Shown here piece by piece: positions 2,748-33,116 of a stretch of DNA of 33,284 nucleotides (positions are counted from its first letter, which is position 1; each line of letters opens with the position of its first letter). The position numbers were made by a program, and so were the translations under genes. The notes under the pieces are model-generated. The model saw only the letters and a program-made list of their open reading frames with translations, was not told the DNA's origin and ran no database searches. This stretch comes from Gemmatimonadota bacterium (GTDB lineage Bacteria > Gemmatimonadota > Gemmatimonadetes > Gemmatimonadales > Gemmatimonadaceae), in the NCBI GenBank assembly GCA_947462095.1, contig CANHNQ010000026.1, forward strand, positions 1-33,284, given 5' to 3'.

Positions 2748-5192
2748 CTACCGCGTCCAGATGGAGATGAGTCCGCAACCGGTGCGCGCGCGCGGGCCCA
2801 GCTCGTTGCCGCCTTGTGAGGCCATCGTGGCGGGAATCGATGCCGCGCCGGCAAACACTTCGATGCCGTAGACTTCGGCGGGCGCCGGCAGTGTTCGCAG
2901 GTCGGGTCGGCCATCGGCTTGCACCACGCCGTTGATCGCCACGCGCAGCCAGCATTCATCGTTGCGAATGCGCATCGATCGCGCGTAGACGGCGCCGAGG
3001 CTGTCCACGACGAGCACCGACGGCACGCGGGTGAGCATCTGCCAGAGACTCACCGGATTGCGCTGCTCGATCTGTTCGCGCGTGATCGACTCCGTGGCCA
3101 GTCCGTAGGCGCGCCGTGTTTCGAAATCGGTGAACCGATTGGTCGTTCTGTTGGCGCGCACCGTAAAAGTATCGAGCGCGGGCGGCGCCGTCGGATCGAG
3201 CGAGAGCTGCAGCGTGTTGCTGCCCGCCACGAACTCGGTGGCGACGGTGCCCTCCACATAGCCGACCCGTCGCAGATGCACGGTGGCGACACCGGCTTCG
3301 AGATCGCCGACCGTGGCCTCGCCGAGGCGATTCGTGCGCATCTCGATTTCACGACCGGCGATCGTGCGCACCACGGCCAGCACCTCGCCAAGCGGTCGTT
3401 CCTCGGCGTCGTACGTGCGAAGGAGCAGTGAGGCCGTACGCGAGACTCGCAGGTACACGTCGGCGGCGGCGAAGGCATCCGTTTCGGCCACACGGAACAG
3501 CGTGTCGATCGTACCGACGGCCGATGTGACGCGAAGCTGCAACGGGATATCGCGGGGAACGCCACACACGCGCCACTGCCCCAGCGAGTCACTCGTGGCA
3601 CTCACGACCTCTTCGTTGAAGCTCACGCGATCGGAAGCCGTGGTGATGTTGCGCAGGGCGCGCAGCCGCACCGTCGCGCCGGACACCACACGGCCACTGG
3701 AGTCGCGCACCGTGCCACGCAGCAAGCTCTGCGCGCGTCGCACCACGTCGGCGCTGCAGACGGCGCGCAGCAGTTCGGTGGCACTGGGCAGCGTCATCTG
3801 CACCAGCCTGCCGTCGGCGCCCACGTCGATGTCGTGTTCACGAGCGGCAATGCCGAGCGAATCCATGAGTGGCGTGTGCACTTGCAACCGGTATTGCCCC
3901 GGCAGGATCGGCTCGACGCGTGCGCTGCCCACACTGTCCGTGCGCATGGTGTAGTCGGTGCCGGTCAGCACACCGAGCGCGCCGCTGATCTCGTGTCCCG
4001 GTACTGGCGTTCCCGTGGCGCGGCGCAGCTGCACGGCGAGTCGCGCGCCTTCTCCACGGAACAGCGTGCGCTCACCCTGCGTGACGCGCGTGACCTCGCC
4101 GCCGCTCACCTGCAGCGCACGGACGACGACGCCGGACGTGGTGATCAGCGTCCGACGGCGACCGACGGTCGTTTGATTGTCGCGGCGCGCGAGAATCGGC
4201 ATGCGCACATGCCACCGCTGCACCATCCACTGTCCGGCACCGAGTCGAAGAAACTCCACCGTGCCGCCGGGGCGCGCGCTTTCGACGAACGCGGGCAGTC
4301 CGGTGTAGCGGTACTCGATGCGCCGGAGTTCATTGCTCACGCGATCGAGCCAGAGCACACCGGTGATGTCGCGACGCTGATTGTCGTTGCCGACCGGACG
4401 GAAGGCGACACCGATCTGCTCCGGCGCGGAATCGGTGGGCGGTTCGAGCCGGAAGCAATGTCCGTTCGTGAACGACTCGGACAGCATCACGTCGGCGTCG
4501 GGCGCGTGATACACCGTGCCGCCGTCGCGATCCACGACATAGCCGTGTGTCGCGAGGGACTCGGCAGGCGCGCTGCGAAATGCGCGCGTGGTCGCGCTGC
4601 GCGTGGTGCGCACCGACTGCTGGCGTACGCGTATGCCCGCGCTATCGAGCGTGCGGTCGTACTCGATCCACTCGGCGTTCAGCGGACTGTCGGACGACGC
4701 CAGCTGCGACGCCATCAGCGCCTTGCGCCCTTCCTCCCACACGCGCGCTACGAGCTGCCCATCGGCGCTACCGGTGCGGCAGTCGTCACGTCCACGCACC
4801 GAGACCGCGGGTAAGGCAACGGCCGCTCCCTTGAGCGCGAACTGGAGCGGCGGAATCTCGGCGGTCGCCTGTTCGAACGGTCCGATGATGGGGCCGTCGG
4901 TTGGCGTGTAGCCAACGCGCAGCGCCCGCAGTCGATAGCGGGCGACCGGCGTGGGCAACTGGAATCGAAAGGCGCCGCGCGCGTCGGAGAGCGTTCGGGC
5001 GAGCACCAGCCCGGCATCGTTCTCGAGCACGACGATGACGGCGGGGGCCGGCGTGGCCCCGTCGGTGGCGAGCACCGTCCCGCGCACCAGTTGGGCCTGC
5101 ACCACGGCCGGCATGCCGCCGACGCCGCACGCGACGCCGCACGTGACGGCGACGAGACGGATGAATCGGACGAGGTGGCGCCGACGAAGCAT
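2748..5192 (-). CDS. Secreted carboxypeptidase-regulatory-like multidomain protein ending in a TonB plug-like domain without a barrel
   Basis: Signal peptide; repeated regulatory-like segments (LVRGTVLATDGATPAPAV..., LLRGTVRDSSGRVVSGATVRL...); C-terminal plug-like segment ITREQIEQRNPVSLWQMLTRVPSVLV...GVVQADGRPDLRTLPAPAEVYGIEVFAG...CGLISIWTR. Confidence 0.75.
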   Translation of the reverse strand: MLRRRHLVRFIRLVAVTCGVACGVGGMPAVVQAQLVRGTVLATDGATPAPAVIVVLENDAGLVLARTLSDARGAFRFQLPTPVARYRLRALRVGYTPTDGPIIGPFEQATAEIPPLQFALKGAAVALPAVSVRGRDDCRTGSADGQLVARVWEEGRKALMASQLASSDSPLNAEWIEYDRTLDSAGIRVRQQSVRTTRSATTRAFRSAPAESLATHGYVVDRDGGTVYHAPDADVMLSESFTNGHCFRLEPPTDSAPEQIGVAFRPVGNDNQRRDITGVLWLDRVSNELRRIEYRYTGLPAFVESARPGGTVEFLRLGAGQWMVQRWHVRMPILARRDNQTTVGRRRTLITTSGVVVRALQVSGGEVTRVTQGERTLFRGEGARLAVQLRRATGTPVPGHEISGALGVLTGTDYTMRTDSVGSARVEPILPGQYRLQVHTPLMDSLGIAAREHDIDVGADGRLVQMTLPSATELLRAVCSADVVRRAQSLLRGTVRDSSGRVVSGATVRLRALRNITTASDRVSFNEEVVSATSDSLGQWRVCGVPRDIPLQLRVTSAVGTIDTLFRVAETDAFAAADVYLRVSRTASLLLRTYDAEERPLGEVLAVVRTIAGREIEMRTNRLGEATVGDLEAGVATVHLRRVGYVEGTVATEFVAGSNTLQLSLDPTAPPALDTFTVRANRTTNRFTDFETRRAYGLATESITREQIEQRNPVSLWQMLTRVPSVLVVDSLGAVYARSMRIRNDECWLRVAINGVVQADGRPDLRTLPAPAEVYGIEVFAGAASIPATMASQGGNELGPRARTGCGLISIWTR

Positions 5193-29526: not shown

Positions 29527-30476
29527 GCATGCGATTCTCTCCTCGCGTCGGGATGGCGGTGATCGCCCTCGCCTGCGGCGCGTCGTCCGCACAGGCGCAG
29601 CGCACGGCGGCCATCGACGTCACGACCGCGCGCTTGATGCAGCGCCTCGGCGCCCTCGCAGCCGACAGCATGGAAGGGCGCCGTGCCGGTACACCCGGCT
29701 CGGCGCGAGCCCGCGCGTGGATTGTCTCGGAGCTCACGACGATGGGGGCGAAGCCCATCGGTCCGAGCTATACCGCGCCGGTCATACTGCGCGCACGGGC
29801 CGGTAGCGACACGACCGGCGCGAACATCGTGGCGCGCATTGCCGGCACGCAGGCCGGTGGTCCGGTGCTCGTGCTCAGCGCCCACTACGATCACCTGGGG
29901 GTGCGCAACGGCGAGGTGTTCAACGGCGCAGACGACGACGCGAGTGGCTGCGTCGCCCTGCTCGCGATCGCCGAACGGCTGCTGCGCGAGCCGCCGCAGC
30001 ACGACGTGATTCTGGCGTTCTTCGACGCCGAGGAGTCGGGGATGGTCGGCTCGAAGGCGTTCGTGAGCGCACCGCCCGTACCGCTCGATCGCATCGCGCT
30101 GAACATCAATCTCGACATGGTGGCGCGTCAGGATGGTCGGGCGCTCTGGGTGTCGGGCACGTCGCACCATCCGGTGCTCAAGCCGATCGCCGAAGCGGCG
30201 GCGAGGAACGCGGCGGTGACCATTCGCTTCGGGCACGACACGAAGGACCTCAAGCCGGGAGACGACTGGACCGCGTCGTCGGATCACGCGGCGTTCCACA
30301 CTCGGGGGATCCCGTTTCTGTATCTGGGCGTCGAGGACCATGCGGACTATCACAAGTCGGGGGACGACGCCGACAAGGTGGACCCCGCGTTTTATCGCGG
30401 CACGGTCGAGTTCGCGTATGCGCTGGTGCGGGCGGCCGACGGTCGGCTGGCCTCGGTACCTCGCGCGAAGCCGTAG
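29523..30476 (+). CDS. M28-family zinc peptidase (secreted)
   Basis: Start refined to ATG 29523 (ATGA overlap). Signal peptide ALACGASSAQAQ; LSAHYDHLGVRNGEVFNGADDDASG, FFDAEESGMVGSKAF, SDHAAFHTRGIPFLYLG. Confidence 0.92.
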   Translation: MSMRFSPRVGMAVIALACGASSAQAQRTAAIDVTTARLMQRLGALAADSMEGRRAGTPGSARARAWIVSELTTMGAKPIGPSYTAPVILRARAGSDTTGANIVARIAGTQAGGPVLVLSAHYDHLGVRNGEVFNGADDDASGCVALLAIAERLLREPPQHDVILAFFDAEESGMVGSKAFVSAPPVPLDRIALNINLDMVARQDGRALWVSGTSHHPVLKPIAEAAARNAAVTIRFGHDTKDLKPGDDWTASSDHAAFHTRGIPFLYLGVEDHADYHKSGDDADKVDPAFYRGTVEFAYALVRAADGRLASVPRAKP

Positions 30477-30499: not shown

Positions 30500-30537
30500 A
30501 GAAGGGCCGCTTCGGAGTGATCCGTTGCGGCCCTTCT
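30500..30537. terminator. Terminator-like hairpin between the M28 gene and the minus-strand micro-ORF
   Basis: Perfect 11-bp stem AGAAGGGCCGC (30500-30510) / GCGGCCCTTCT (30527-30537), 16-nt loop. On the minus strand it is followed by a pyrimidine-rich TCCATTCC; no long U tract. Confidence 0.6.
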
Positions 30538-30546
30538 GACTCCTTG

Positions 30547-30571
30547 CCGGTTCGAAACGATCCCGAACCGG
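30547..30571. other. Second hairpin, 8-bp stem
   Basis: CCGGTTCG (30547-30554) / CGAACCGG (30564-30571), 9-nt loop; lies just 3' of the micro-ORF on the minus strand. Confidence 0.5.
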
Positions 30572-30580
30572 TAGTACCCG

Positions 30581-30646
30581 TTACCGGGCGTCGATCAGGA
30601 GATCGGTTGCCCAGGACGAACCGGCAAAGGAACTAGGACTAGACAA
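30581..30646 (-). CDS. Putative 21-aa micropeptide (M/L)SSPSSFAGSSWATDLLIDAR with TTG start
   Basis: Minus strand GAGGAGGTGATCAT-TTG: AGGAGGTGATC is an 11-nt match to the canonical anti-SD complement with a 7-nt spacer from GGAGG to TTG. ORF ends in TAA immediately before two hairpins. Confidence 0.5.
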   Translation of the reverse strand: MSSPSSFAGSSWATDLLIDAR

Positions 30647-30745
30647 ATGATCACCTCCTCGAAATAGGGTGGGACTTCGGGCGTACTGACACCGAGATCC
30701 TACAATGCCGCCCAGGCCGCTTGGAGACCGGGGAAGCGCGGTTTT

Positions 30746-30767
30746 TGCGCGGTCGCTCCTCCGCGCA
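30746..30767 (-). other. 5' leader hairpin upstream of the micro-ORF
   Basis: 7-bp inverted repeat TGCGCGG (30746-30752) / CCGCGCA (30761-30767). A further GCGCGG copy at 30736-30741 allows alternative pairing. Confidence 0.35.
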
Positions 30768-30773
30768 GCCACC

Positions 30774-30802
30774 ATGCTAGGGCACCGGCCGCTCCGAGGC
30801 AA
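30774..30802 (-). promoter_or_regulatory. Candidate sigma70-type promoter for the micro-ORF (TTGCCT-17-TAGCAT)
   Basis: On the minus strand TTGCCT (30802-30797), 17-nt spacer, TAGCAT (30779-30774). Partial consensus only. Confidence 0.35.
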
Positions 30803-30893
30803 GCGACGAATGCGTGCCAAATCACAGTTCGGTACTTTTCCGAGACAGTGTCCGCCGCAGGATTCCCCGGATTTCCCCACCTCGAGCTCCGCC

Positions 30894-33116
30894 ATGGTCA
30901 GACTGACCTCCCGCCACCATCTGTCCCGCCGAGCGGCGACAGTGGCTGCCCTCCTCCTCGCTGTTCCCGCCGCGATTGTGGCGCAGCAGGCACCGGCCGC
31001 GCCCGCCGCGACCACGCTCCCCAAAGGGCCGCGCGCGATGCTGCTGGCCGACTGGTACCGCGTGGTCACGGTGAGCTCGCCCGCCGTCTCACCAGACGGG
31101 AAGCGCGTGGCCATGACGGTCACCAAGGCTGTGGACGCTGAGAATAAGCGGCACAATGAGATCTGGGTGGTGAACACCGCCGGCGGCGAGCCGCAGCGGT
31201 GGACGTCGCCGAGTACCGAAAGCAGCAATCCGCGCTGGTCGCCCGACGGCAAGTACCTGTTCTTCACGTCGCCGCGCGCCGGCGGGCAGGGGAGCACGTG
31301 GGCCATTCGCCTCGACCAGCCCAGTGGCGAAGCCATCCAGATCGCCACGTACGCCAACGGCTCGATGCCGGCCGACGGCTCCTTCGCCGTGTTCACCGAG
31401 CCGGCCCGTCGCGACAGCACGGCGCGGAACGGCGCCAATCCGTTTGCCCGCATGCAGCCGATGGCGCGTCCCACCTACGACGCGATCACACGTCCCGCCG
31501 AGCCCGCGCGCTTCGACGGCCGTCATGTGACCGACATGTCGTACAAGGTGAATGGCGTGGGCTTCGTGCCGGGGCGTGCCGAGGCGCGCAGCTGGCGTCC
31601 GTCGCAGCTGTGGCGGCAGACGGTGGGCGACACTGCGAAGCGGCAGCTCACGACCGCGCTCTATTCGCACCGGTCGCCCGAAGTGTCCCCCGATGGCAAG
31701 TGGATTGCCTTCGTGGCCGACGCGCAACTGCGCCCGGATTCGATGGTCGATCTCGAGCGTGACTCGCTCGCCAAGCTGCCGTACAACAAGGCCCGCGATG
31801 AAGCGGATCGGAACGACACCGACCTGTACGTCGTGGCCAGCACCGGCGGCACGCCGCGGAAGGTGAGCGAGTGGATGGGCGCCGAGTCGGACATCACGTG
31901 GTCGCCCGACAGCAAGCAGCTGGCGTTCGTGGGCCGTCCGTCGCGCATGAAGTCGGCGCGCATCTATGTCGTGGACGTGGCCGGCGGCACGCCGCGCAAT
32001 CTTCTCGGCGACTGGCAGTTCGAGCCGGGCTCGCTGTTCTGGCTGAGCACCGGCCAGCTGCAGTTCGCGGCGGACATTGGTGGCCGTTCGGCCATTCTGC
32101 GGGCCGATCTCACCGGCAAGACGGCACCGAAGGAGCTGGTGGGTGGTCGTCGTCAGCTGCGTGGCGCGAGCTACGACGCGGCGGGCAAGGTGATGGCGTA
32201 CACGTCGACCTCAATGACGAAGCCCACGGAGTTGTTCGTGGCGACGGCTGACGGCACGGGCGAACGCCAGCTCACGCACTTCAATGACGACGTGAACACG
32301 GACGTGGTGTGGAGCGACGCCGATCGCTTCACGTACAAGAGCGTCGGCAACCTGGAGATCGAAGGGTGGCTGATGAAGCCGTACGGCTACACCCCGGGCA
32401 AAAAGTATCCCATGGTGATCTACATCCACGGTGGCCCGCACTCGGCGTACGGCGAAGGCTGGTTCGACGAGTTCCAGAATCTCGCGGCGCAGGGGATGTT
32501 CGTGCTCTTCACGAACCCGCGCGGATCGAGTGGCTACGGCGCGGACTTCACCTACAGCACGCGCGGCCGCTGGGGCATGGAGGACTACGACGACCTGATG
32601 AAGGCGGTGGACATCGTGGCCGCTCGCCCCGATGTAGACAGCACGAAGATGGGCGCCACGGGCGGCTCATACGGCGGATTCATGACCACGTGGATCGCCA
32701 CCAAGACGGATCGCTTCAAGGCGATCGAGACGGACCGCACGATTACCGACTGGACCTACTGGTACGGCAGCAGCGATGCGCAGGGGCTCACCGAGTTCGA
32801 ATTCTACGGGAAGCCGTGGGACAATCAGGCGCTCTACGACACGCTGTCGCCGATTCGCTATGTGCAGAAAGTGAAGACGCCGATGCTGCTGGTGCAGAGT
32901 GAAGAAGATCACCGCACCCCGATGGGGAGTGCGGAGATCTGGTTCATGTCACTCAAGAAGCAGGGCGTGCCGGTGGAGATGGTGCGCTATCCGCGCTCGA
33001 ATCATGATCTCTCGCGCACCGGCGAGCCGTGGTTGCTGGTGGATCGCCTCGGGCGGATCCGGCAGTGGTTCGCGTTCTGGCTGCAGGGTGTGAAGCCGGG
33101 AACGGCGGCGCAGTAG
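30894..33116 (+). CDS. S9-family (prolyl oligopeptidase/DPP-like) serine peptidase
   Basis: Start refined to ATG 30894 (MVRLTSRHHLSRRAATVAALLLAVPAAIVAQ). Beta-propeller SPDGK repeats; catalytic GATGGSYGGFMTTW, SEEDHRTPM, RSNHDLSRTGEP. Confidence 0.93.
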   Translation: MVRLTSRHHLSRRAATVAALLLAVPAAIVAQQAPAAPAATTLPKGPRAMLLADWYRVVTVSSPAVSPDGKRVAMTVTKAVDAENKRHNEIWVVNTAGGEPQRWTSPSTESSNPRWSPDGKYLFFTSPRAGGQGSTWAIRLDQPSGEAIQIATYANGSMPADGSFAVFTEPARRDSTARNGANPFARMQPMARPTYDAITRPAEPARFDGRHVTDMSYKVNGVGFVPGRAEARSWRPSQLWRQTVGDTAKRQLTTALYSHRSPEVSPDGKWIAFVADAQLRPDSMVDLERDSLAKLPYNKARDEADRNDTDLYVVASTGGTPRKVSEWMGAESDITWSPDSKQLAFVGRPSRMKSARIYVVDVAGGTPRNLLGDWQFEPGSLFWLSTGQLQFAADIGGRSAILRADLTGKTAPKELVGGRRQLRGASYDAAGKVMAYTSTSMTKPTELFVATADGTGERQLTHFNDDVNTDVVWSDADRFTYKSVGNLEIEGWLMKPYGYTPGKKYPMVIYIHGGPHSAYGEGWFDEFQNLAAQGMFVLFTNPRGSSGYGADFTYSTRGRWGMEDYDDLMKAVDIVAARPDVDSTKMGATGGSYGGFMTTWIATKTDRFKAIETDRTITDWTYWYGSSDAQGLTEFEFYGKPWDNQALYDTLSPIRYVQKVKTPMLLVQSEEDHRTPMGSAEIWFMSLKKQGVPVEMVRYPRSNHDLSRTGEPWLLVDRLGRIRQWFAFWLQGVKPGTAAQ

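Follow-up and report, generated by a model that had tools for sequence, protein, structure and literature searches.

Between an M28 and an S9 gene of a Gemmatimonadota bacterium (family Gemmatimonadaceae; assembly GCA_947462095.1, contig CANHNQ010000026.1), the minus strand reads like a minute gene: promoter, leader, Shine-Dalgarno (SD) sequence, TTG start, 21 codons, TAA and hairpins. The locus raises the question whether it serves to make a dedicated micropeptide, as the first-pass annotation had suggested, or whether the RNA itself is the product. The window that was analyzed is the whole stretch of 33,284 nucleotides. Direct reading bore out the proposed layout (Table 1), and Pfam confirmed the identities of the two flanking genes, both of which are encoded on the plus strand (the M28 gene ends at 30476). 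The promoter hexamers and their 17-nt spacing are kept with small changes in nine close relatives (L002-L009 among them), while the spacer bases vary. Just 5' of the SD, at about 30670-30686 on the minus strand, the leader contains the block GCCCGANGTCCCACCC, which recurs in other Gemmatimonadota families. Both hairpins that had been announced were found, i.e., CCGGTTCG/CGAACCGG, read directly on the minus strand 3' of the TAA, and the 11-bp stem, but the first one competes with a longer helix that has its 5' arm in the ORF. The U tract of the terminator-like stem is weak in this species, and the hairpin and the M28 gene are convergent, and the gene may share it; relatives, e.g. L048 and L111, have clear terminators with T runs. 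The reading frame is also open far 5' of the TTG (mechanical ORF 30581-31474), which is a G+C artefact.

Table 1. Features of the element and their positions in the window
Feature	Position	Strand	Remarks
Promoter TTGCCT-17-TAGCAT	30774..30802	-	TTGCCT 30802-30797, TAGCAT 30779-30774; read directly
5' leader	30660..30767	-	start site inferred from promoter
Maximal Shine-Dalgarno AGGAGGTGATC	30649..30659	-	11 bases; complementary to the single-stranded 16S rRNA 3' tail
21-codon ORF MSSPSSFAGSSWATDLLIDAR	30581..30646	-	TTG 30646-30644, TAA 30583-30581; start and stop conserved in position, residues variable
5' arm of long hairpin	30617..30630	-	within ORF, +17 to +30
Inner hairpin GGGC...GATC-TCCT-GATC...GCCC	30585..30613	-	within ORF
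Alternative small hairpin CCCG-GUAA-CGGG	30577..30588	-	stop codon in loop
3' arm of long hairpin	30542..30554	-	3' of stop codon; part also pairs with 30571-30564 as alternative
Terminator-like hairpin, 11-bp stem AGAAGGGCCGC/GCGGCCCTTCT	30500..30537	-	read directly

The SD had been called exceptionally strong, and rightly so: the 3.6-Mb assembly contains just two copies of the 11 bases, the second apparently within a coding region. The 16S rRNA of the genus ends with GGCTGGATCACCTCCTTTCT (locus L242), which predicts pairing of the SD with the free 16S rRNA tail.

A DNA search of relatives, in which BLAST matches do not require the SD, identified the element in 45 of 149. The positives include 26 of the 29 genomes in this genus as well as genomes from the sister family, so that the element is present in both families of the order; the conserved core consists of the SD, the ORF and the hairpin. 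With a covariance model, 98 of the 288 genomes searched in the order were positive (the weakest matches are uncertain). At the level of the phylum, a short pattern (SD, two free bases and TTGTCT, one mismatch allowed) was present in 187 of 395 genomes, almost always in one copy, compared to 1 of 395 for the reversed pattern; members found in this way share the SD by construction. In 118 genomes of the family, nearly all matches to an SD-NTG pattern represent this element. The first-pass annotation had named missing conservation of SD and start in related genomes as the observation that would speak against it; both are conserved across relatives, in agreement with its claim of a dedicated, self-contained and very probably translated unit. 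That the SD is a chance string in non-functional intergenic DNA, for which the small size of the element speaks and nothing else, is refuted by the DNA search, the covariance model, the phylum and family patterns and the covariation described below, and its probability is negligible.

The element is much older and more widespread than one sequence alone could reveal. Among the matches listed in a scan of GTDB genomes are also Alphaproteobacteria, Nitrospinota and one Neomarinimicrobiota (Marinimicrobia) genome, with identical SD, spacing and design, and a relaxed pattern was matched in 43 of 289 sampled Alphaproteobacteria genomes. The case for homology across phyla depends on the initiation region plus the architecture, for which convergence could also account. 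Copies on named plasmids were found in Azospirillum, Skermanella, Sphingobium and Methylobacterium, mostly in stretches without a listed same-strand gene (plasmid gene tables are incomplete). Plasmid pSM-3 of Skermanella mucosa carries two copies (L245, L281), and in Azospirillum lipoferum 4B two replicons gave matches. An exception among the plasmid copies is a version in Azospirillum that is longer, 57-59 codons (L246, L247, L283), and is listed in A. thermophilum as a hypothetical protein. In this version the same initiation region precedes a signal-peptide-like sequence (MSHGASPVVAALFGLATLLTAGIANADC...), and in two of the three cases a carbonic anhydrase gene is nearby. The longer version may be an example of the element turning into a protein gene. 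Three contigs labelled Gammaproteobacteria with a Gemmatimonadota-type element (L110, L152, L167) are probably misbinned. In the Zambryskibacteria contig L138, a 121-codon protein begins with the same SD-TTGTCTAG start (3248-3268, minus strand), probably by chance, and ORFs of more than 45 codons (L073, L074, L102, L138) were excluded as chance motif matches. No element was found on viral contigs, and phage matches were weak only, mostly under primase or hypothetical genes, and were judged to be chance. Searches of plasmids with the peptide MSSERKYLR... gave no real match, and with Rhodobacterales-type DNA none at all.

The start codons interchange between ATG, GTG and TTG, but CTG never occurs. 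In 44 alphaproteobacterial matches, for which the base before TG had been left free in the pattern, it was A in 23, G in 15, T in six and C in none. TTG is used by nearly all members of the Gemmatimonadota, with the exception of genus g4 of the Gemmatimonadaceae, which has ATG GCC in place of TTG TCT at an equal distance from the SD. Stop codons also interchange, at fixed positions, and the ORF has 20-22 codons in 53 of 59 diverse Gemmatimonadota elements. In this set the standard deviation of ORF length is 1.3 codons in frame 0 versus 24.8 in frame +1, for groups that were trimmed of long outliers and contain related, i.e., not independent, sequences. The interchange of starts and stops together with the tight ORF length argues that the ORF is very probably translated.

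The peptide, on the other hand, appears to be free of protein-like selection in the Gemmatimonadota. Codon positions 1, 2 and 3 diverge about equally within the genus (0.21, 0.23 and 0.17), and the synonymous share of single-step changes is 0.27 versus 0.25 expected at random. In Alphaproteobacteria, the motif GGAGCARCCTYY is found in differing reading frames in L226, L227 and L239. Even divergence, a synonymous share at chance level and shifting frames indicate that the peptide sequence is not the main target of selection. The peptides of the various clades, 11-35 amino acids long and mostly polar, have only an N-terminal MS(S) in common, and neither control codons for one amino acid nor a stall motif were seen in them. 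A dedicated micropeptide as the product is thus disfavored, as RNA pairing and ORF length are maintained and the peptide is free to vary; the ideas of a membrane-associated or RiPP-like product fare no better, the peptides being polar and unconserved and no common neighbor genes having been seen.

A micropeptide that is functional but makes few demands on its sequence, e.g., an N-terminal MS plus a short core, with a hairpin that tunes expression or stability, is rather unlikely. It would explain the conservation of start, stop and length, the MSS or MSH beginning, and the fact that genus g4 has kept M-A-S-x-S-P-x-A-G-S-x-W-A after the change of start codon and codon 2. The synonymous share of about 0.4 versus 0.24 in Nitrospinota and Rhodobiaceae, based on few sequences, points in the same direction, as does a TWIVAS-like core that some Alphaproteobacteria, Methylobacterium among them, have in their peptides. 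It is at odds with the random synonymous share in the genus, with third codon positions that are not faster, with GGAGCARCCTYY in different frames, and with ORF ends that follow the hairpin. The part of the Alphaproteobacteria with the common pattern MSHC...TWIVAS is a possible exception, and the peptide could be functional there.

In contrast to the amino acids, the RNA shape is conserved. A region of 226 nt folds at -100 kcal/mol, below 200 of 200 shuffles (z -3.8). The folding z values for five groups are -3.6, -2.75, -2.1, -4.5 and -5.7, and pairs between the ORF and its downstream region exceed shuffled ones in all five. The 5' arm of a long hairpin is supplied by the ORF in every clade; the stop codon lies near the apex, the 3' arm and then the terminator come next, and the ORF ends track the hairpin. 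The hairpin starts at about +8 to +26, and Alphaproteobacteria have an extra hairpin inside the ORF. Covariation is strong in a Longimicrobiales-type group, with 97.5% of the cells in the long helix paired and both-side changes in 10 of 18 pairs (0 of 500 shuffles); the window's genus has 13 both-side cells in the covariation test (0 of 500 shuffles). The U-G pairs would be C-A mismatches if read from the other strand, and therefore they support a minus-strand RNA. For the segment after 30554, two upstream segments can serve as pairing partners in the genus, and a second small hairpin can hold the stop codon. Mutually exclusive hairpins overlap the ORF, and each of the two alternative pairings is kept in more than 93% of cells. 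The sequence GGGCAANCGATCGCC (about +33 to +48, counted from the start codon) takes part in the pairing of the long hairpin; its position is strongly kept across Gemmatimonadota families, and it seems to be conserved beyond the needs of pairing alone. Sequestration of the SD by downstream sequence, which would have completed a simple switch, was rejected as a general mechanism (mean z -0.6 to +0.2 versus shuffles).

The three-segment alternative pairings resemble attenuators, and a cis-acting leader peptide or attenuator of a downstream gene was also considered. This reading is already largely refuted, and very improbable: the next gene in the window, M28, is convergent, so that no same-strand gene lies directly downstream, the orientation of the downstream gene is mixed across clades (in a crude longest-ORF test), and the neighbors differ outside the near relatives. 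A common cis target across clades was not found. The S9/M28 neighborhood is kept near the window's genus and, beyond it, only in a few family members, which rules out linkage to these genes as the cause. As neighbor genes are not common to the relatives, the element is regarded as an independent gene. Its own promoter and the terminators after the hairpin, predicted from the sequence, are features of an independent transcript. Judged by these comparisons, the locus is a real, unannotated, free-standing gene for an RNA of roughly 200 bases with predicted unusually strong ribosome binding.

Rfam contained no match at the gathering threshold, and weak E-value matches on this stretch were chance-like. 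Pfam and NCBIfam profiles gave no match, peptides this short being hard to detect, and no description of the element was found in open-access papers, which is not proof of absence. Of the possibilities raised by the first-pass annotation, which as a whole is partly supported, a leader-peptide or dual-function sRNA fits best. Dual-function sRNAs (SgrS, RNAIII, Pos19) are independent small structured transcripts with a short ORF, and so is the element. However, its ORF is itself the main hairpin arm, its peptide is unconserved and it matches no Rfam family. Type I toxin mRNAs are likewise small and folded with a tiny ORF, but they encode a hydrophobic membrane toxin, whereas the peptides of the element are mostly polar and unconserved and SD sequestration is unsupported. 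With leader-peptide attenuators of the trp type the element shares a short ORF and competing hairpins whose pairing would be shifted by translation, followed by a terminator. In contrast to them, it has a maximal SD, is conserved as a free-standing unit across phyla, has no downstream operon and is not tied to one amino acid. The element thus resembles a leader peptide set loose from its operon, and lacks the defining regulated downstream gene. The leader peptide peTrpL of Sinorhizobium meliloti also acts in trans (PMC7298713). In Staphylococcus aureus, extended SD-antiSD pairing together with a weak start codon has been linked to regulated initiation of infC, ccpN and cvfC1 (PMC13009471). The element shares both properties, but the SDs of those genes precede ordinary protein genes, and that of the element a very short hairpin-folded ORF.

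We propose, at about even chances, that the element is a short structured translated RNA with a fold set by ribosome occupancy, and that this RNA, likely a regulator, is the product. The maximal SD would capture a 30S subunit; a longer SD-antiSD helix is known to support weak start codons and regulated initiation (PMC13009471). The ribosome would start at TTG (ATG or GTG in many Alphaproteobacteria), read 11-35 codons along the 5' arm of the long hairpin, and stop and be released near the apex. Translation would open the hairpin, which would form without it, and the fold would report ribosome access. The peptide would be mostly incidental, and the RNA, in its ribosome-occupied or folded state, would most likely regulate in trans or via its own stability, in step with the ribosome supply. 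The proposal is backed by conservation, start and stop interchange, hairpin covariation and independence from the neighbors; transcription, two states in vivo and a role in trans we infer. An RNA that traps ribosomes, with maximal SD, weak start and stable hairpin holding 30S or 70S particles and thereby buffering or storing them, is a distinctly unlikely alternative. Complementarity between the SD and the free 16S tail, the TTG start of nearly every member of the Gemmatimonadota apart from genus g4, and a hairpin beginning at about +8 to +26 would suit it; ATG or GTG in many Alphaproteobacteria would not, trapping does not require a conserved stop close to the apex, and a single-copy RNA would need to be very abundant.

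A gene that about half of the well-assembled genomes of the phylum carry, in roughly one copy each, that also occurs in other phyla and that is absent from the searched libraries represents a clear gap in annotation. A more far-reaching and quite tentative version of the proposed ribosome-dependent RNA is that the element belongs to a deeply conserved class which occurs at least in Gemmatimonadota, Alphaproteobacteria and Nitrospinota and serves to sense free ribosomes: by way of a maximal SD and a dummy ORF, a ribosome would open the hairpin, and the state of the RNA would signal translation capacity in trans. With its complementarity to the free 16S tail, an ORF that is a hairpin arm, a stop codon near the apex and no common downstream gene, the design offers a testable case that the purpose of a small ORF can be translation itself rather than the peptide.
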